Virus record (IMG/VR): IMGVR_UViG_3300030060_002542
Coordinates: 1-22,094 of that record
Source of the DNA: a virus
Length of the DNA: 22,094 nt
Strand: one strand, 5' to 3'
In this document: positions 1,566 through 17,546 of the stretch, one piece after another
Layout: every line of letters starts with the position of its first letter
Numbering within the stretch: the first letter of the stretch is position 1
The notes under the pieces: model-generated
What the model was told of the DNA's origin: nothing
Databases searched by the model: none
Seen by the model: only the letters and a program-made list of their open reading frames with translations
Made by a program: the position numbers and the translations under genes

Positions 1566-2047
1566 TCTGTTCCGTCTCTATTTATTAGTGCCATATCGTT
1601 ATTAGGTGTTCTGATCGATAAATCCATTGACCAGCCTGTAACTTTGTTTTCAAACTTATCTTCAAATAACTGAGCTGTAGGATCTGTGTTTAGATGAAAT
1701 AAATCATCATATAAATCACCTCTTCTAATTGCAGACTGTATACCATTTACTACAGATAATAGTGTATTTTGTATATCGTGCTTATTATCTAAACCTAAAT
1801 GTGGTTTTGCTTTATCCTGCTTATCATCTTTATCTTCATCTACTAAATCCATTACAACAACATTTATGTTTATATTCATAATATGTTCTGCAAATGCTAC
1901 GTTTTGAATATTTATATGTGCCAATGGAAAAATAGTTTGTTTTGATAAATCAACTTCTAATAAATCACCAAAGGTTACGGTATTTATAGAAACATTACCA
2001 TTTAGGTAAGTATGTAATTTATCAATAATATTATAATAGCTTCTCAT
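1556..2047 (-). CDS. Probable tail terminator / minor tail protein
   Basis: A 163-residue acidic protein. The N-terminal part (MRSYYNIIDKLHTYLN) is a helix followed by 'TVTFGDLLEVDLSKQTIFPLAHINI', then a strand-rich middle and an Asp/Lys-rich loop (VDEDKDDKQDK). The end 'VTGWSMDLSIRTPNND' is the sort of strand ending seen in tail-terminator proteins that fold as a small alpha/beta ring subunit. The call rests on this general pattern and on position, between the tail chaperone and the gp10-like protein. Its ATG at 2047 overlaps the stop of the chaperone's frameshift frame as ATGA, the expected coupling if that frame is truly translated. Confidence 0.5.
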   Translation of the reverse strand: MRSYYNIIDKLHTYLNGNVSINTVTFGDLLEVDLSKQTIFPLAHINIQNVAFAEHIMNININVVVMDLVDEDKDDKQDKAKPHLGLDNKHDIQNTLLSVVNGIQSAIRRGDLYDDLFHLNTDPTAQLFEDKFENKVTGWSMDLSIRTPNNDMALINRDGTECQ

Positions 2048-2304
2048 TTAAACTTCTTTTTTATCATTTGTCTTTCGAGATCGTTTTTTTGCTTTTCAAA
2101 CGAGAGGAATGTGAGACATTGGTGTATCGGAAGTTTTGTAACATCGTCAAATTTTCTGACATCTCCTCTAGCGAGTGCATAAATTGATTGATACCAACCC
2201 CATTTTTTTCCAAAGCTGCCTTCAAGTCCGATGTTGTATCCTTCTTCACTGTCTTGCGAATATAAGTCAGGGTAGCTTTCGACAATTCCATCCCTAAACG
2301 ATAA
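2044..2304 (-). CDS. Tail chaperone -1 frameshift extension (gpGT-like)
   Basis: This is the downstream half of a predicted fusion of about 255 residues: 169 from the zero frame, then 86 from the -1 frame. The extension (LSFRDGIVES..., with KWGWYQSIYALARGD, then FDDVTKLPIHQCLTFLSF) looks strongly like a real globular helical domain, with tryptophans and cysteine in a typical buried pattern, and I recall this kind of sequence from Bacteroidetes phage tail chaperones. The frame has a TAA only a few codons before the T run, so it is entered just where slipping is possible. There is no good independent start; a TTG at 2319 is the only one nearby. Its stop overlaps the next gene's ATG, which supports translation of this frame. 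Confidence 0.7.
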   Translation of the reverse strand, partial: LSFRDGIVESYPDLYSQDSEEGYNIGLEGSFGKKWGWYQSIYALARGDVRKFDDVTKLPIHQCLTFLSFEKQKNDLERQMIKKKFK

Positions 2305-2810
2305 AAAAAAACCATACAACCCATTACTACGTTAAGTGGCATTTCTTTCATTAGATGGCTTATTTCATCAGATGGTGAATATTCTGCAATCGTATATCTT
2401 TCCTTCTTCTTAAAGTTAACTGGTCTGTAAAGTACAGCCATAGCTTTGTGCATATTTTGCCAATCACCAAGAAAGTTTTCTGTATCTACGTATTCACCTA
2501 AACTCATATCATCTAATTTCGGTATGAATCCCATTTGTACATCTAGTAATTTAAATAATTGCACCAATTCATAATCTTTCTCAAAAGCAGTAGAAATAAC
2601 ATTCACTACTTTTATTACATCTTTGTAAGCAACCTTGTCAACTAACTTTTCTTCTATGCCACAGAAATGTTGAATAAGCTTTTTGTTTACTGTCTTAGCA
2701 TCCTTTTCAGGATCTAGCTTGTCTATGCCTTTAAGATATTCTTGATATTGACCTAGTGTTACCTCAGATAATGAATTCGGTACAACAATCTTTACTTTTT
2801 CTTTTATCAT
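2064..2810 (-). CDS. Tail assembly chaperone, zero-frame product (gpG-like)
   Basis: A 248-residue mostly helical protein starting at the ATG at 2810 (IKEKVKIVVPNSLSEVTLGQYQEYLKG). 'LSEVTLGQYQ' and a later 'MSLGEY' give it the look of a phage tail assembly chaperone, which guides tape-measure protein during tail polymerisation. A run of nine T residues (2311-2303 on the coding strand) gives zero-frame codons GTT TTT TTT TAT after residue 166. Slipping back one base there leads into a second frame that is open for 86 residues. Reading on in zero frame adds 79 residues (ending KKTISKDK). Both products are described separately. No perfect promoter is visible in the 207 AT-rich bases upstream. 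Homopolymer miscount is the main alternative. Confidence 0.75.
   Translation of the reverse strand: MIKEKVKIVVPNSLSEVTLGQYQEYLKGIDKLDPEKDAKTVNKKLIQHFCGIEEKLVDKVAYKDVIKVVNVISTAFEKDYELVQLFKLLDVQMGFIPKLDDMSLGEYVDTENFLGDWQNMHKAMAVLYRPVNFKKKERYTIAEYSPSDEISHLMKEMPLNVVMGCMVFFYRLGMELSKATLTYIRKTVKKDTTSDLKAALEKNGVGINQFMHSLEEMSENLTMLQNFRYTNVSHSSRLKSKKTISKDK
2303..2311 (-). promoter_or_regulatory. Slippery T9 run for -1 frameshifting
   Basis: Nine consecutive T on the coding strand form an ideal T TTT TTT heptamer in the chaperone frame; both tRNAs can re-pair after a one-base backward slip. A run of nine could also permit transcriptional slippage by RNA polymerase. I saw no convincing strong stem directly downstream, only a weak AGGG/CCCT pairing. 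Confidence 0.7.
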
Positions 2811-3017
2811 ATTATAATAACTTTGTTTCTATTTTATGTATCTCACCAAGTCAAATGACGTAGTGACATATCAATAAATAATTATATGTATTATACAGAA
2901 TATTATGTGTTATGTACAATATTATACTAATACATACTTATACATAAAATAAAAAACATACTTACTTATGTATACTTATAATTATATATATATGTGCCAT
3001 TAGGACAGTTGGAATAT
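2811..3017. other. AT-rich intergenic region with ATACTTA repeats
   Basis: No gene is supported here; reading frames are short. The segment is extremely AT-rich and holds three direct copies of ATACTTA at 2934-2940, 2958-2964 and 2972-2978, plus an alternating AT run at 2981-2995. It lies directly upstream of the tail gene unit but has no TAnnTTTG box for the minus strand. It could hold a promoter of another type, perhaps one read with a phage factor, or an operator. That is inference. Confidence 0.4.
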
Positions 3018-3605
3018 TCAATTATTCGTGGTGTAGTAATGACAACGTAATTCTCGGATTTTATCGTAAATTGTTTTTGATGTATACGTTTGGGGTGATC
3101 TTATTATCAAACCTCTGTTATCTATTTCAATATACATTTCTTTTGAATTTAGGGTTGGCACTGGATATACTTTTACATCATTTTTTATGCACCAACTAAA
3201 ACATACATTTGGGTCTATATAATTTTCCATTTTATCTATATTAGTATTTGACTCAATAAATATTTTCTCTTGCACTTTAAATAAATCCTCTATCTTTTTA
3301 GCGGCATTTATAATGCTTTTTACTTTTTCTGAACCACCTTTAAACCATTCTGTTTTACTATCAAAAGACTTTACACCCATACAATCTCTATACTTTATTG
3401 CTTGGTTTAGTTTGTTGCTTACTTTTATTATAGATTCAACTTGATTAGAGAATCTATGTTCCTTAACATACGTTTCATTTACAGCTAAATCCATATTTTG
3501 TGTTACTTGAGTATGCCTCTTTTTTGGGTTATCTGTTATACCAACTTTCCAAAACTCTTTGGCATCTTTATCTCTAGTTGTGTATATGTATAAATATCTT
3601 TTCAC
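3018..3605 (-). CDS. GIY-YIG / T5orf172-like nuclease-domain protein
   Basis: The N-terminus 'KRYLYIYTTRD...FWKVGITDNPKKRHTQ' (about residues 2-33) matches the start of the GIY-YIG-like T5orf172 family: a YIY strand, then WKVG-T-n-P-RR in place of the second motif. The rest (195 residues in all) is helical and then strand-rich and is not recognised. Whether it still cuts DNA cannot be read off; a clear catalytic Glu was not identified. I chose the GTG at 3605 over an in-frame ATG at 3635 because the sequence between them is a terminator tail and a perfect TATATTTG box; the predicted transcript start falls on the GTG itself. It is the only gene in its unit. Confidence 0.6.
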   Translation of the reverse strand: MKRYLYIYTTRDKDAKEFWKVGITDNPKKRHTQVTQNMDLAVNETYVKEHRFSNQVESIIKVSNKLNQAIKYRDCMGVKSFDSKTEWFKGGSEKVKSIINAAKKIEDLFKVQEKIFIESNTNIDKMENYIDPNVCFSWCIKNDVKVYPVPTLNSKEMYIEIDNRGLIIRSPQTYTSKTIYDKIRELRCHYYTTNN

Positions 3606-3609
3606 AAAG

Positions 3610-3617
3610 CAAATATA
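3610..3617 (-). promoter_or_regulatory. Promoter -7 box TATATTTG, leaderless start
   Basis: A perfect TAnnTTTG box ends four bases before the GTG at 3605, so transcription should begin at or very near that start codon. The -33 box is poor: the corresponding stretch is taken up by the terminator hairpin of the upstream gene, which offers only ATG at about the right spot. The same box-to-start geometry is found at the ERF gene. Confidence 0.55.
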
Positions 3618-3646
3618 AAAAAAAAAGGGTAACATTTCTGCTACCC
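3617..3646 (-). terminator. Rho-independent terminator with GAAA loop
   Basis: On the minus strand GGGTAGCA pairs with TGTTACCC (8 bp with one G-U) around a GAAA tetraloop and is followed by ten T. It closes the 77-residue coiled-coil gene (stop at 3672). The T run flows directly into the next promoter box, sharing one base. Confidence 0.85.
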
Positions 3647-3671
3647 TAATTTTTAACCATCCTGGTCTATG

Positions 3672-3905
3672 TCATATGTTTTTTGCTTTTTCGTTTTCGT
3701 AACGGTCTTCTGTCTCTTGAACTTTGTTTGAATAATGATTCATAGACTCAAGTGCTTCGACATATTTCTCTTGTGCTTCTTTTAGATATTTTTTATAAAC
3801 ATCTAATCTACCTTGTAACTCACGAACTTTTCCTAACCAATGATTCTTGTCTAATTCGTGTATCTTAAGATTTGTTTCCTTTTTCATTTTCTGTGTATTT
3901 TTCAT
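3672..3905 (-). CDS. Small coiled-coil protein, function unknown
   Basis: A 77-residue highly charged protein, rich in Lys, Glu and Gln with heptad-like spacing of Leu, Val and Tyr from about residue 20 to the end (VRELQGRLDVYKKYLKEAQE), so almost entirely coiled coil. There is no catalytic motif. It is a single-gene transcription unit: a near-ideal promoter lies at 3934-3964, a palindrome sits just beyond the -33 box, and a strong terminator follows. That isolated, dedicated control suggests an early or regulated role, but the function is not recognised. Confidence 0.7.
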   Translation of the reverse strand: MKNTQKMKKETNLKIHELDKNHWLGKVRELQGRLDVYKKYLKEAQEKYVEALESMNHYSNKVQETEDRYENEKAKNI

Positions 3906-3933
3906 AACGTATTTTATTATTATTATTATAAAC

Positions 3934-3964
3934 CAAAGATACGATATTATCTGTCATATGCAAA
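3934..3964 (-). promoter_or_regulatory. Bacteroidetes-type promoter (TTTG-N19-TATCTTTG)
   Basis: A TTTG at 3964-3961 lies 19 bases before a perfect TAnnTTTG box (TATCTTTG, 3941-3934). The predicted start is near 3929, leaving a leader of about 24 bases before the ATG at 3905. Confidence 0.7.
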
Positions 3965-3971
3965 TTATATT

Positions 3972-3983
3972 ACAATTAATTGT
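3972..3983. repeat. 12-bp perfect palindrome, candidate operator
   Basis: ACAATTAATTGT is a perfect palindrome starting eight bases beyond the -33 box of the 3905 gene's promoter, a usual position for an activator or repressor site. Overlapping it on the plus strand is TTGTCAGTTGG, the same motif found at the -33 boxes of other promoters here, so a weak divergent plus-strand promoter is possible, though no good -7 box was found. Confidence 0.4.
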
Positions 3984-4242
3984 CAGTTGGAGAATGTTAT
4001 CTGTGTGGAGTCGTGGTTATATTAGTACGACTTGCCATTTTTACAGAGAGTACCCCAAATAAATACTATTCAAGCATAATAAAAAGATTAGCTGTAAGGA
4101 GCTCAAATTCTGTCCAGGTGGTTTACCATCAAATCAAATTTTAATTGCATTAGGCGTTCTCTGAGGCGTAAAATTCGCACTATTTAGGATCTGTATTAAT
4201 CTTTTAGAGCTGGAAATCAACCAATTATAAATTTTAACCCAT
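3984..4242. other. Unassigned non-coding region, possible RNA or relic
   Basis: About 260 bases between the terminator of one unit and the promoter of the next, with no reading frame I would call. It is less AT-rich than the other gaps, and contains a 6-bp hairpin (AGTCGT at 4010-4015 with ACGACT), a GAGCTC palindrome near 4100 and a direct AGGCGT pair near 4152-4170. A plus-strand transcript of it would end at the C5-A5-G5 hairpin at 4251-4265. Options are a structured small RNA, a relic of acquired DNA, or an attachment-type site. None is established. Confidence 0.35.
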
Positions 4243-4265
4243 AAAAAAAACCCCCAAAAAGGGGG
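4243..4265 (-). terminator. Rho-independent terminator, C5-T5-G5 then T8
   Basis: On the minus strand CCCCC, a five-T loop, GGGGG and eight T follow the four-gene unit that ends at 4310. It is a textbook terminator. Confidence 0.85.
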
Positions 4266-4309
4266 TTATATAATTAATTTATTTTATTTAATGTTTAATT
4301 TATTTATTT

Positions 4310-4561
4310 TTAGTTAGTCATTCTGTAAGTACAAACCCAATCTTGAATTTTATTATTGAATTTTTTATGGGCTTCTTTTTTGCTTAAATTATCAACATTG
4401 ATATAATGGGAAATAATACAATCAATTATCAATTCCCAATTCCAATTTTTAAACCTTTCTTTTGCAATAGTGCTCAATAGAAAAATTTGATTATCATCCT
4501 TTAAATAGCTTACCCTCAAATACTCGTTGAGGATAAGCTTCCTTTGTTGTAGATTAAACAT
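4310..4561 (-). CDS. Hypothetical protein, last gene of an early unit
   Basis: An 83-residue basic protein (FNLQQRKLILNEYLRVSYLKDDN...), with Trp-rich helical segments (KNWNWELIIDCIISHYINVD) and a short C-terminal 'KIQDWVCTYRMTN'. No family is recognised and there is no membrane segment or signal. Its ATG overlaps the end of the preceding gene by 8 bases, so the two are coupled. A terminator follows 45 bases after the stop. Its stop codon lies in a CTAACTAA sequence of the kind seen at other gene junctions in this region. Confidence 0.65.
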   Translation of the reverse strand: MFNLQQRKLILNEYLRVSYLKDDNQIFLLSTIAKERFKNWNWELIIDCIISHYINVDNLSKKEAHKKFNNKIQDWVCTYRMTN

Positions 4562-4967
4562 TGTATGTGTGATTTACGTCTTTAAGACATTCAACAATTA
4601 ATTTTTCAATATCGATTTCTTCTTGTATCAAATCATAAATGTTAGCATAAGCAACTTGCATCCAATTATTAAACCTTTCGCCGGTTACATCCCAAGTACC
4701 GAAGGCATCATATTTACCGATTATATCCGATATTTTTTTTGCGTTGTGAGTGTAAATAACATCTTCACAGCCGTCAATAATTTCGTGTAACATATCTTGA
4801 ATGCTGTCGTTTAAATCATCCTTTAAACAAATATCGTTTTCATAATCGTCTAAAGAAATCCTGTCACCTGTAGAAGTACGAAAATCATATTCTAAAAGTG
4901 CGTTGATTGAGTCTTTAATTGTTTCTTCCCAATCTTTAATTATTTCGTTTATTGTTGTATTTTCCAT
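4554..4967 (-). CDS. Hypothetical acidic protein
   Basis: A 137-residue strongly acidic helical protein (EIIKDWEETIKDSINALLEY; SLDDYENDICLKDDLNDSI; EEIDIEKLIVECLKDVNH) with a central 'KYDAFGTWDVTGERFNNWMQVAY'. It is not recognised. The composition, rich in Asp, Glu and Ile, is in line with small host-takeover or DNA-mimic-like phage proteins, but this is only a resemblance. It lies in the early unit behind the promoter at 5606-5637 and shares an 8-base overlap with the next gene. The start at 4967 follows an A/T-rich leader without a Shine-Dalgarno. Confidence 0.65.
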   Translation of the reverse strand: MENTTINEIIKDWEETIKDSINALLEYDFRTSTGDRISLDDYENDICLKDDLNDSIQDMLHEIIDGCEDVIYTHNAKKISDIIGKYDAFGTWDVTGERFNNWMQVAYANIYDLIQEEIDIEKLIVECLKDVNHTYNV

Positions 4968-5001
4968 TTTATTTAAATTTATAAGTTATTTTGTTAGTTA
5001 A

Positions 5002-5325
5002 TTAAAAAGGTAAATCCGCATCCCTTGTGAAAGAAGATGAAGAAAAATTGTAAGTAATACCTTTAAATCTTAAGTACTTCAAATTATCCGCCTTTATTGT
5101 ACGAAATCCGTTTTTATTCATATCCCATACAATTACGTTATTAAATTTTCTAGGGTCATAATTTAAACCCTTTCCATTGACGCCAATTTTGACACCACCG
5201 CGGAAAGCTCCGCTTCTGTACTCTTCAACTTTATTAAATGTATTTTTTTTAATAAAGGTTGCACCAAAAATGTTACCGCTTTTTGCCGCTTTAGTTAGTA
5301 AATCAAATTTTAATTTTTTATTCAT
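5002..5325 (-). CDS. Hypothetical protein with SSB-like C-terminal tip
   Basis: A 107-residue basic protein. The first half is rich in Lys, Phe and Gly (FDLLTKAAKSGNIFGATFIK; AFRGGVKIGVNGKG). The second half has 'NVIVWDMNKNGFRTIKADNL', which looks like a small beta-barrel. It ends in RDADLPF, closely resembling the acidic-hydrophobic tip (DDLPF/DDIPF) by which SSB proteins bind their partners. A second gene here, the SSB-like protein at 15603-15863, ends DGLPF. This may let the protein bind host SSB-partner proteins; that is inference, and a chance match of a short tail is possible. It follows the structured element at 5356-5414, so its expression may depend on it. Confidence 0.65.
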   Translation of the reverse strand: MNKKLKFDLLTKAAKSGNIFGATFIKKNTFNKVEEYRSGAFRGGVKIGVNGKGLNYDPRKFNNVIVWDMNKNGFRTIKADNLKYLRFKGITYNFSSSSFTRDADLPF

Positions 5326-5355
5326 AATATATATTTATTTAGTTAGTAAAAGGTA

Positions 5356-5414
5356 GAGAACTTTTGATTGTAACTACCTTAAAGGATTTTACAGCCCTTT
5401 CACCAAAAGTCCTC
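5356..5414 (-). other. Long-range inverted repeat, structured leader RNA
   Basis: Arms at 5356-5366 and 5404-5414 pair over 11 bp (GAGGACTTTTG with CAAAAGTTCTC on the minus strand, one G-U). They enclose 37 bases that can form an inner AAAGG/CCTTT stem; an alternative AAGGTAG/CTACCTT stem (from 5350) competes with the outer one. The element fills the gap between the 42-residue membrane gene and the gene at 5325. The run of T after it is too short for a strong terminator, so a leader structure, attenuator or processing site is more likely. Confidence 0.5.
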
Positions 5415-5434
5415 TGTTTATTTATTTTAATTAG

Positions 5435-5563
5435 TTAAAATATTTCTTTAATAGTCCTTATAAAAGGCTTTAAAAATAGTGTAGAAACTATTAAAGTCAT
5501 AATACCGAAAAAAGGTATTAATAAATTGATTATTGTGTTTATTTCGTTTAAAGTCATTTTCAT
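5435..5563 (-). CDS. Small membrane protein (42 residues)
   Basis: The ATG at 5563 opens a 42-residue frame: a short polar start (MKMTLNEINT), one hydrophobic span of about 22 residues (INLLIPFFGIMTLIVSTLF) and a basic tail (KPFIRTIKEIF). It is the first gene after the promoter at 5606-5637, with a leader of about 38 bases. The function is unknown; single-span mini-proteins in early phage units often act on the host envelope, but nothing here shows that. The stop lies in a TAACTAATTAAAATA junction sequence. Confidence 0.6.
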   Translation of the reverse strand: MKMTLNEINTIINLLIPFFGIMTLIVSTLFLKPFIRTIKEIF

Positions 5564-5605
5564 AATTATAATTTTTAGTTAGTTATTATTTTAAATTAGT
5601 TAGTA

Positions 5606-5637
5606 CAAATCTAAAGTAAATTTTTCTAACTGACAAA
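5606..5637 (-). promoter_or_regulatory. Early promoter (TTTGTCAGTT-N-TAGATTTG)
   Basis: TTTG at 5637-5634 lies 20 bases before the perfect box TAGATTTG at 5613-5606. The -33 part is extended to TTTGTCAGTT, shared with the promoters at 6758-6788 and 16430-16459. It drives the unit 5563-4310. Confidence 0.8.
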
Positions 5638-5724
5638 CCAAAAGCAAAAAAAATGCAAAAAAATGCGAAAAAATGCAAAATTTAGAATGAGTCTAAATAA
5701 AGCTCTAGAACGTATTTATTAAAC

Positions 5725-5759
5725 AAAAAAAAACCCCCTATTGAATTCACAAAGGGGGG
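5725..5759 (-). terminator. Terminator with a repeat motif in its loop
   Basis: On the minus strand five C pair with five G and nine T follow. The 15-base loop contains a complete copy of the repeat unit (GTGAATTCAATA). It closes the five-gene unit 6729-5811. The unusually long, conserved loop suggests the repeat may be recognised as RNA or may modulate termination. Confidence 0.8.
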
Positions 5760-5806
5760 TATTAAATTCATAGGGGTATTAAATTCACATCCCTATTAAA
5801 TTCATA
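5739..5806 (-). repeat. Repeat cluster S: four copies of RTGAATTYAAYA
   Basis: Four direct copies begin, on the plus strand, at 5739, 5760, 5777 and 5794 (TATTRAATTCAY), 17-21 bases apart, between the stop of the 44-residue gene and the T run of the terminator. Copies differ only at the R and Y positions. They are the same repeat, in the same orientation, as the eight copies after the large terminase. Confidence 0.9.
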
Positions 5807-5810
5807 GAAA

Positions 5811-5945
5811 TTAACCTGGTCCAGGTGTAGAAGAAAATAATTTTTTTCTTTCTCTGATCTCTTTTTTTATTTTAGGGTCAGAGCTGGACAACTTATTCAA
5901 ATCTTTTATATTTATTTTAAAGTAAGTGTATCTTTCTTTTTCCAT
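5811..5945 (-). CDS. Small basic protein (44 residues)
   Basis: The ATG at 5945 overlaps the previous stop (TAATG). The 44-residue product is Lys/Arg-rich in its middle (DPKIKKEIRERKKLFSS) and ends PGPG. It is the last gene of its unit, directly followed by the repeat cluster. There is no recognised family; the Lys-rich helix could bind nucleic acid. The end of the gene contains a small inverted repeat, CCTGG-A-CCAGG. Confidence 0.55.
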   Translation of the reverse strand: MEKERYTYFKINIKDLNKLSSSDPKIKKEIRERKKLFSSTPGPG

Positions 5946-6112
5946 TATGTATATTTTTTTAATTGTTTATGAATATCATCATAAGCTATTCTTGAATCCT
6001 CAATAGATTTTTCGTTAAGCATAGATGCTATGAGAATTGATATCATTTGTTTTCTTTCGTATTCAGGTAAGCATAGAGCTTGACTCATTATTTGTTTTGT
6101 ATATTCATTCAT
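5945..6112 (-). CDS. Small hypothetical protein (55 residues)
   Basis: The frame from the ATG at 6112 encodes 55 residues, helical and mixed in charge (NEYTKQIMSQALCLPEYERK; MISILIASMLNEKS; DDIHKQLKKY). It is preceded by an A/T-rich junction sequence (TACTAATTAAAATA) like those before its neighbours and is coupled to the next gene by TAATG. The function is not recognised. Confidence 0.6.
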   Translation of the reverse strand: MNEYTKQIMSQALCLPEYERKQMISILIASMLNEKSIEDSRIAYDDIHKQLKKYT

Positions 6113-6127
6113 AGTTATTTATTTTAA

Positions 6128-6325
6128 TTAGTAATATTTATTATCTCTTTCATCGTGAAAGCCAGTGCCTTCTTTACATTCTCTACAACGACCAGTTGCA
6201 TAATCATCTACTATTTCTACTTCACCTATTGGATAAGCACCACAACAATCTGATAAGAAAGTTACATTATCGTACTTGTAATATTCATCTTGCCAATTAG
6301 GTTCACTATCTACCATATGATTCAT
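6128..6325 (-). CDS. Small zinc-ribbon-like protein
   Basis: A 65-residue acidic protein with two cysteine pairs: 'SDCCGAYP' near residues 26-29 and 'GRCRECKE' near residues 46-50, separated by a short strand pair (IGEVEIVDDYATG). This is the pattern of a small zinc ribbon or knuckle. Such proteins commonly bind nucleic acid or RNA polymerase, but no specific role can be assigned. An alternative start is the ATG three codons in. The ATG at 6325 overlaps the preceding stop as ATGA. It lies in the unit behind the promoter at 6758-6788. Confidence 0.65.
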   Translation of the reverse strand: MNHMVDSEPNWQDEYYKYDNVTFLSDCCGAYPIGEVEIVDDYATGRCRECKEGTGFHDERDNKYY

Positions 6326-6474
6326 AATTCTAAATTTAATATGTTTCTATGTGTTGCTACTTCTAATAAGTATTCATTGTCATAATCTAATGATCCATCT
6401 AAATATCTCAAGATGTTTTCTTGACAATATTCATAAGGTAATATGTATTGTTTTATAAATTGTTTTCTTTTCAT
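6322..6474 (-). CDS. Small hypothetical protein (50 residues)
   Basis: The frame from the ATG at 6474 gives 50 residues: a basic start (MKRKQFIKQYILPYEYC) and an acidic end (DGSLDYDNEYLLEVATHRN). It is preceded by the junction sequence CTAATTAAAATATAAAATT directly before ATG, nearly identical to that of the gene at 6729, and overlaps the next gene by ATGA. It is not recognised. Confidence 0.6.
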   Translation of the reverse strand: MKRKQFIKQYILPYEYCQENILRYLDGSLDYDNEYLLEVATHRNILNLEL

Positions 6475-6489
6475 AATTTTATATTTTAA

Positions 6490-6729
6490 TTAGCTATTAG
6501 TTTTATTAGTTTGTTTATTTATATCTTTGTAGAGCTTGTTAATTATACTCTTGTATATTTCAAATTCAAACAAAAACATTTCTTTATCATTCATATTTTT
6601 AATCTCAGGATTTAAAAATTTTGTTGATTTAAGACTAAGATGCCAATTAGTAGTATCCCAAATGTGATCTTCAACAACTGGGAGTATGTAATCTGCAATC
6701 TCCTGGACCGTTTTTTTATCTGTATTCAT
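6490..6729 (-). CDS. Small hypothetical early protein (79 residues)
   Basis: First gene after the strong promoter at 6758-6788, with a leader of about 25 bases. The 79-residue product is helical and polar (VQEIADYILPVVEDHIWDTT; EMFLFEFEIYKSIINKLYKD) with no known motif, no signal and no membrane span. As the promoter-proximal gene it should be the most highly transcribed of this unit. Its stop codon forms the beginning of the junction sequence in front of the next ATG. Confidence 0.65.
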   Translation of the reverse strand: MNTDKKTVQEIADYILPVVEDHIWDTTNWHLSLKSTKFLNPEIKNMNDKEMFLFEFEIYKSIINKLYKDINKQTNKTNS

Positions 6730-6757
6730 AATTTTATATTTTAATTAGTTAATAGTA

Positions 6758-6788
6758 CAAATATAATAATTATTTTGCAACTGACAAA
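6758..6788 (-). promoter_or_regulatory. Early promoter (TTTGTCAGTTG-N-TATATTTG)
   Basis: TTTG at 6788-6785 is followed after 19 bases by a perfect TATATTTG at 6765-6758. The extended TTTGTCAGTTG is shared with the ERF promoter. It drives the five-gene unit 6729-5811 and lies right after the terminator of the large-terminase unit. Confidence 0.85.
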
Positions 6789-6825
6789 TATTATTTAAAT
6801 TATTTTTTATATATATTTGCAGAAA

Positions 6826-6857
6826 TTAAAAAACCCTCTGAAAGTATCAAAGGGTTT
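6826..6857 (-). terminator. Terminator of the replication/packaging unit
   Basis: AAACCCT (6831-6837) pairs with AGGGTTT (6851-6857), extended inward by TGA/TCA past one mismatch; on the minus strand six T follow. It lies about 200 bases past the large-terminase stop, after the repeat array. Confidence 0.75.
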
Positions 6858-6926
6858 CTTGTTAACTAATTATAATAACCAAATCAAATTATGAAATAAC
6901 ATAATTGAAGTAGATGCTAATATAGG

Positions 6927-7059
6927 TATTAAATTCATATATACAAAATTTTACCTATTGAATTCATAGTATTGAATTCACAGGTGTTGAATTCACAAGC
7001 TATTAAATTCATAAACCTATTAAATTCACAGTATTAAATTCATAGGTATTGAATTCACC
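6927..7059 (-). repeat. Repeat array R: eight copies of RTGAATTYAAYA
   Basis: Eight direct copies begin, on the plus strand, at 6927, 6956, 6970, 6985, 7001, 7018, 7032 and 7047 (TRTTRAATTCAY), mostly 14-17 bases apart. Variation is confined to R and Y, plus one C in the fourth copy. The copy nearest the gene includes the TGA stop of the large terminase. Together with the S cluster it forms a 12-copy family. The C-type copies contain GAATTC. The remainder of 6858-7054 has no gene. Confidence 0.9.
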
Positions 7060-16732: not shown

Positions 16733-17145
16733 TATTTATGATGTTTGTTGCCAATTATTTTTTCTGCACCTCTAGATCCAAAGTAACCTAAAAATACAAT
16801 AGTCAGTAATTCTTTTATTACTGATAATTCTTCTAATTGTAAATACCATCCTATAACAAATGCTACAGTTAAAAATACAAGTGTAAGTGGTCTGACGTTT
16901 TTAGCTAACCAACTACTACTGGCAGAATCAGCTACCCATCTTTTTGTTATGCCATCAAATTCGTGTATTTCTTGTTCTAGCTTTTTAAGTGCAACTTGTT
17001 TATCACCATCAGACATTTCTGACCCACCAATGAGAGTACGAACAATATTACCAGCAGGGGAATCACTAGCGAGACTGGTGACGACATTTGGGATTTTCTC
17101 AAGTAAGAATCTTCCAACCTTTGTATCTTTAAATTTCTTTTTCAT
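16732..17145 (-). CDS. Holin of the 3-TM type
   Basis: A 137-residue protein with a basic N-terminus (MKKKFKDTKVGRFLLEKI), an amphipathic section (VTSLASDSPAGNIVRTLIGG; KLEQEIHEFDGITKRWVADS), then 'WLAKNVRPLTLVFLTVAFVI' and 'ELLTIVFLGYFGSRGAEKI', two clear membrane spans with a short Lys/His tail. The K-W-x-D-S...NVRPL-l--l pattern matches the family described as '3TM holin' for gene-transfer-agent-type release. It would open the inner membrane to let the M15 peptidase reach the wall. It begins 23 bases after that gene's stop. Confidence 0.8.
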   Translation of the reverse strand: MKKKFKDTKVGRFLLEKIPNVVTSLASDSPAGNIVRTLIGGSEMSDGDKQVALKKLEQEIHEFDGITKRWVADSASSSWLAKNVRPLTLVFLTVAFVIGWYLQLEELSVIKELLTIVFLGYFGSRGAEKIIGNKHHK

Positions 17146-17168
17146 CGGTTAATGTGCTTCCTACAGTA

Positions 17169-17546
17169 TTAGTACAACCAGAGAGCATCCACTTTGTTTG
17201 GGTCGTTGTCAACGTGAATGAAGGATTTTGCCACTCCAAGTCTAGTGAATCCTGCCGTGATAAGGCTTCTAACAATAATCTCTCTATTATTCGAATTTTT
17301 ACAGGCAATGTCCGCAGCGAATCCATACAGGTGTGAGCTTCCCCTATTCCAGTTAGTTTTAGGCACTCCTCCCACCTTAAAATTGTGAGTCTCGCTTCTA
17401 TATCCTGAGTTAATTTTAAAGGATATTCCTGCGATTTCTCTTGCTTTGTCCAGCATCCGTAAGAAATTATGATCCATATTAACACCACTATTCTCTTGGT
17501 CAGGACTGTCAAATTCAGATAATTCAAAATATTTAAGTTTAATCAT
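17169..17546 (-). CDS. M15-family peptidase endolysin
   Basis: A 125-residue single-domain zinc peptidase. 'FKINSGYRSETHN' (43-55) is the S-G-yRs motif, 'GSSHLYGFAADI' (69-80) is the SxHxxGxAxD motif with zinc ligands His72 and Asp79, and 'FIHVDND' (109-115) supplies the third ligand His111 and catalytic Asp113. This matches peptidase M15 (M15_3) enzymes that cut cell-wall peptides, as in many phage endolysins. No signal peptide is seen, so release depends on the adjacent holin. The start overlaps the 39-residue membrane gene by ATGA. Confidence 0.9.
   Translation of the reverse strand: MIKLKYFELSEFDSPDQENSGVNMDHNFLRMLDKAREIAGISFKINSGYRSETHNFKVGGVPKTNWNRGSSHLYGFAADIACKNSNNREIIVRSLITAGFTRLGVAKSFIHVDNDPNKVDALWLY

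Follow-up and report, generated by a model that had tools for sequence, protein, structure and literature searches.

Does a run of nine T residues in the middle of a viral gene divert some of the translating ribosomes into another reading frame and, if so, what do the two resulting proteins do? The question is raised by a gene of a marine virus of bacteria, located in the window, that is, the 22,094-nucleotide stretch of IMG/VR virus record IMGVR_UViG_3300030060_002542 analyzed here (Table 1). An earlier note on this DNA had proposed that T9 is read in a chaperone frame as a T_TTT_TTT slip site and that a slip at 2304 leads into a -1 frame that has a stop shortly upstream, stays open for 86 residues and ends over the ATG of the next gene. 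All these details are borne out: the run is exactly nine nucleotides long (A9 on the plus strand, 2303-2311), its context in the frame of the 248-aa ORF (the 0 frame) is ATG GTT TTT TTT TAT CGT, with T_TTT_TTT in the canonical X_XXY_YYZ register, the upstream stop in the -1 frame lies about 9 codons before the post-slip sequence, leaving an open -1 ORF of 95 codons, the -1 extension includes WGWYQSIYALARGD, and its TGA (2046-2044) overlaps the next ATG (2047-2045) within ATGA. What had been missed is that the 0 frame, too, is conserved and continues beyond the slip for another 79 codons. The T9 run by itself is unremarkable in such AT-rich DNA (the window has 6 T9/A9 words where 4.9 are expected, the other 16.3 kb 0); its conservation in register is what exceeds chance, so conservation had to decide.

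Table 1. Features of the frameshift locus, with coordinates in the window
Feature	Coordinates	Strand	Remarks
0-frame ORF, 248 aa	2810-2064	minus	Product of normal decoding; from the ORF list
Parts of the 0-frame protein			Putative chaperone-like N domain (residues 1-169), then a 79-codon 0-frame extension
Candidate T9 slip site, T_TTT_TTT in the 0 frame	2303-2311	minus	From the sequence
-1 frame extension, 86 codons after the slip	2304-2047	minus	Invariant F..WGWY motif
-1 frame stop, TGA	2046-2044	minus	
Dual-coding overlap, 79 codons readable in the 0 and -1 frames	2303-2067	minus	
Next gene, 163 aa	2047-1556	minus	Matches PHROG 30964

IMG/VR was searched with both frames as well as with divergent members, which yielded about 200 homologous loci, and at least 595 stretches there match the -1 domain. 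Homologues are present also on two bacterial MAG contigs, one from Winogradskyella and one from Flavobacteriaceae, and in the cultured Nonlabens phages P12024L and P12024S; no other cultured phage with a homologue was detected in these searches. At all 108 first-round loci, the second part of the gene is in the -1 frame, and the second-round loci all agree. A homologue with one uninterrupted frame, which according to the earlier note would speak against frameshifting, was looked for across all fetched loci, and none was found. The 169 distinct homologous sites comprise 135 with T9, 18 with T10, 15 with A_AAT_TTT and one of another kind, such that one of the two heptamers occupies the 0-frame register at the junction in 168 of them and the T run is kept in the register NTT TTT TTT in 153; the alignment of homologues that had been suggested as a check thus finds both the run and the two frames conserved. 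The homology of the -1 domain, in which an F and the WGWY motif are invariant, starts at the slip site. In a maximum-likelihood tree (the root being midpoint only), all A_AAT_TTT sites fall into a single clade with a support of 99, which is nested within the T9 rows. Because the register and the -1 relation are the same in every homologue, fused versions were not found, and one clade has swapped the heptamer, a conserved programmed -1 frameshift in the 248-aa gene is strongly supported by these comparisons. The sole site that lacks a heptamer (L143:2478-2520; TTG CTT TTT ATG) carries a U_UUU tetramer only and is the sister of the A_AAT_TTT clade; it is either a natural test of the minimal slip site or a sequence error. 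In Escherichia coli, the known -1 motifs include tetramers as well as heptamers (PMC4066793).

Could the two frames be explained without any frameshift? The -1 ORF might be a separate gene that has a start of its own or depends on re-initiation, as implied by the GenBank annotation of P12024L, where gp41 is listed as a gene of its own with an internal ATG that overlaps the stop of gp40. By homology, however, gp41 (L112:12528-12695, YP_006560440.1) corresponds to the terminal part of the -1 extension of gp40. This possibility appears very unlikely: at 60 of the 169 sites, none of ATG, GTG and TTG occurs close to where the -1 frame opens, and 57 sites lack an ATG throughout that frame. Moreover, the -1 homology begins where the slip would occur, and most members have their 0-frame stop a long way beyond the point at which the conserved -1 domain starts. 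Homopolymers are prone to errors, so that a sequencing or assembly artifact in the T run also comes to mind; such an artifact is next to inconceivable here because the same -1 relation recurs at 169 distinct sites, among them T10 versions, versions that lack a T run and the site in the genome of a cultured phage.

What, then, slips on this site? Tandem re-pairing is possible on both T_TTT_TTT and A_AAT_TTT, and the replacement of one X_XXY_YYZ heptamer by another in the same position favors tandem slippage of the ribosome over transcriptional slippage on T9, so that, judging from these sites, the slippage is most likely ribosomal. In the proposed scheme, ribosomes translating the minus-strand gene from 2810 would mostly stay in frame and produce the 248-aa protein, and a fraction of them would slip back by one nucleotide as two tRNA-Phe re-pair in tandem on the T_TTT_TTT of the T9 run, to yield a product that shares residues 1-169 with the 248-aa protein and ends in another C-terminus, mainly helical and 86 residues long. 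Stimulatory structures are found at many characterized -1 sites, being common, not obligatory; when 20 homologues were folded, no downstream RNA stimulator was apparent as excess stability (z from -1.8 to +2.1).

The competing view, under which RNA polymerase adds a U on T9 and the -1 product arises by ordinary translation of the edited mRNA, has some appeal given that runs of nine A/T are slippage-prone in many bacteria and that IS elements, among others, express genes in this way (PMC1088944), and that all T-run homologues possess 9 or 10 T even though T7 would be enough for ribosomal slippage. The flanking T's, however, are accounted for by conserved residues, namely, a hydrophobic NTT codon in the 0 frame before and a Leu codon in the -1 frame after the heptamer, and slippage on A/T runs may be suppressed in AT-rich organisms (PMC1088944). 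Furthermore, the clade of 15 sites without a T run has A_AAT_TTT and keeps the same -1 architecture. Thus, transcriptional slippage is disfavored as the general mechanism and is altogether an improbable one, while it may contribute where T9 exists. With regard to the earlier note, the programmed -1 frameshift stands, owing to the conserved register and the absence of fusions among the homologues, whereas the transcriptional alternative that it had offered is unlikely as a general mechanism in view of the A_AAT_TTT clade.

The 0-frame extension past the slip is long not only in this gene: across the 169 distinct sites, its median length is 64 codons (range 16-102), with only 16-25 codons in the P12024-like group. 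The midpoint root of the tree gives no direction for the gain or loss of the long tail. Is this tail a by-product of the -1 frame? When the -1 codons were recoded synonymously, the probability of an open 0 frame was 0-0.09 per representative, and the frame is actually open in 32 of the 32 representatives, which are related sequences, such that the individual values are not to be multiplied; a stricter shuffling of each sequence's own codons gave 0.004-1.0 and is less decisive for single sequences. The fourfold-site divergence falls at the slip, from 0.39-0.53 to 0.007, and then climbs to about 0.3 along the overlap. For the same pairs of sequences, it is 0.340 in the N-terminal part and 0.111 in the -1 frame and 0.092 in the 0 frame of the overlap, that is, roughly threefold lower in both frames, with amino acid identities of 0.90, 0.89 and 0.82, respectively. 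Since the 0 frame is open in all 32 representatives and the fourfold divergence drops in both frames, both overlapping C-terminal regions evolve under purifying selection, so that the programmed frameshift comes with genuine dual coding. The fourfold divergence is close to zero over the first 12 codons after the slip, an effect stronger than elsewhere in the overlap, and this segment may contain a short nucleotide-level element.

One could still argue that the long 0-frame extension has no function as a protein, that only the -1 frame matters, and that the constraint on the overlap acts at the RNA level or is a side effect. Such an interpretation would fit the predicted disorder at the far end of the tail (AF2 pLDDT under 50 from residue 223) and the existence of the P12024-like group that makes do with the short extension. 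It seems unlikely to us, considering that the 0 frame is open against expectation, that its own fourfold sites are constrained and its identity is maintained at 0.82 where that of the -1 frame is 0.89, and that the 20 folded homologues gave no RNA structure signal.

With regard to the function of the protein, searches of Pfam, PHROG and the PDB returned no match that names it. All 51 aligned 0-frame proteins match PHROG 32199, a family of unknown function, and four of them match phrog_166, annotated as 'tail protein'; PF10109 (Phage_TAC_7) was hit by a single member of the 51 with an E-value of 0.009, which is at chance level, and the Pfam matches below the cut-off (Birna_VP1_thumb, DUF5424 and others) were likewise judged to be due to chance. 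Sequence and fold searches of the PDB with both C-termini gave nothing usable, which is not evidence of a new fold. The AF2 models were made separately for the 248-aa 0-frame protein and for the -1 domain. The former has a mean pLDDT of 84.6, its confident part encompassing residues 1-190, and a long helix of the confident N domain spans the slip point; the latter is mainly helical (mean pLDDT 71.7). The best structural neighbors in BFVD are uncharacterized phage proteins, and there is a weak match to an annotated tail assembly chaperone (ctCpR1; E 0.037, TM 0.34/0.41).

The gene order is terminase, then the frameshift gene, then terminator-like and gp10-like genes. The next gene, probably encoding a tail terminator or completion protein, has a homologue following the frameshift gene in 186 loci, and a terminase precedes the frameshift gene in 115 relatives, at a median distance of 162 nt upstream. 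Here, the gap between the two is 4.2 kb (window 2811-7054) and contains a T5orf172-type ORF (3018-3635) and small ORFs; about 380 nt of the T5orf172 ORF (window 3221-3600) are cleanly missing in near relatives such as L002-L004, whereas L007 and L009 have them. Capsid, protease and portal genes are found in the same 33.3-kb virus record, as is a 771-aa coiled-coil-like ORF, the putative tape measure, several genes downstream of the frameshift gene. The portal gene is broken by unread bases (XXXX in the translation; L111:5092-5472, about 22.1-22.5 kb of the genome), which represent an assembly gap at the window end, and elsewhere in the window (17129-17546) an ORF of 132 aa overlaps, in a different frame of the same strand, another long ORF, whose 125-aa product resembles an M15 peptidase. 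No other candidate chaperone pair was noticed in the tail region.

Given the terminator-like gene that follows in 186 loci, the coiled-coil-like ORF and the two-form architecture, the most likely role of the gene is that of a tail assembly chaperone made in two forms, and we regard this assignment as probable. The chaperone identity put forward in the earlier note is accordingly plausible from architecture and neighborhood, whereas the searches above connect it to no curated family or solved fold, and its position is not that in phage lambda: the gene does not occupy the slot between the tail tube and the tape measure genes. Such a position is usual, not universal, and is not itself the function. 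The pair would then work like gpG/gpGT of lambda, a tail assembly chaperone whose two forms are produced in a fixed proportion, where the abundant form would coat the tape measure and the rare form would bring in the tail-tube subunits. A ribosomal -1 slip, two products and this lambda-like mode of action jointly provide what seems to be the best explanation of the locus, and quite probably the right one.

How does this gene compare with the known systems? As in lambda, likewise a tailed phage with a long set of tail genes, one gene would give two products via a -1 slip on an X_XXY_YYZ heptamer, the shifted form bearing an added C-terminal domain. In lambda, however, the slip occurs at GGGAAAG, 5 codons before the stop of G, compared with 79 codons after T9 here, and the gene lies between the tail tube gene V and the tape measure gene H rather than before a terminator-like gene; no sequence relationship to gpG/gpGT was found. 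Similarly, gpE/E+E' of P2 and gp13 of HK97 with its -1 extension involve a -1 programmed frameshift in a tail chaperone gene, and P2 also uses a T-rich heptamer, T_TTT_TTG (PMC3091744). These systems differ in that only 6 codons separate the slip from the 0-frame stop in P2 and that, in both phages, the chaperone gene adjoins the tape measure gene or is one small gene away; no sequence match to the P2 or HK97 genes was obtained. True homologues of both parts are gp40/gp41 and gp38/gp39 of the Nonlabens phages P12024L and P12024S (Inhavirus), which share the slip site (CTT TTT TTT TAT) and the order of terminase, frameshift gene and terminator-like gene, and differ in a 0-frame extension of about 25 codons and in being annotated as two hypothetical proteins without a frameshift. 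Shigella mxiE and the IS elements also reach a second frame via a homopolymer run, by transcriptional slippage (PMC1088944); here, in contrast, one clade has a ribosomal heptamer in place of the run, which RNA polymerase slippage does not explain. Compared with the known -1 frameshifts in chaperone genes, what is new is the long unshifted frame with both C-termini under selection. In the literature searched, we found no paper that joins a Flavobacterium phage, frameshifting and tail assembly.

This family amounts to a natural experiment on slippery sites: alongside 153 sites with a T run, it contains a nested clade in which the heptamer was exchanged, and this exchange helps to tell the ribosomal mechanism from the transcriptional one with no need for laboratory work. 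As an example of long dual coding on one strand, the overlap is unusually clean, and it lends itself to changes that are silent in only one of the two frames. In practical terms, a likely tail assembly gene can be named in environmental phages whose proteins are now all of 'unknown function', and the annotation of such genes as two separate ORFs conceals the real product. On balance, we lean toward the view that, in a large group of Bacteroidota phages, the slip, rather than letting a minority of ribosomes pass a stop close by, is a choice between two complete C-terminal domains that share 50-100 codons by overprinting, the unshifted chaperone having a selected tail of its own within the code of the -1 domain, and that the two forms of the protein may bind different partners.
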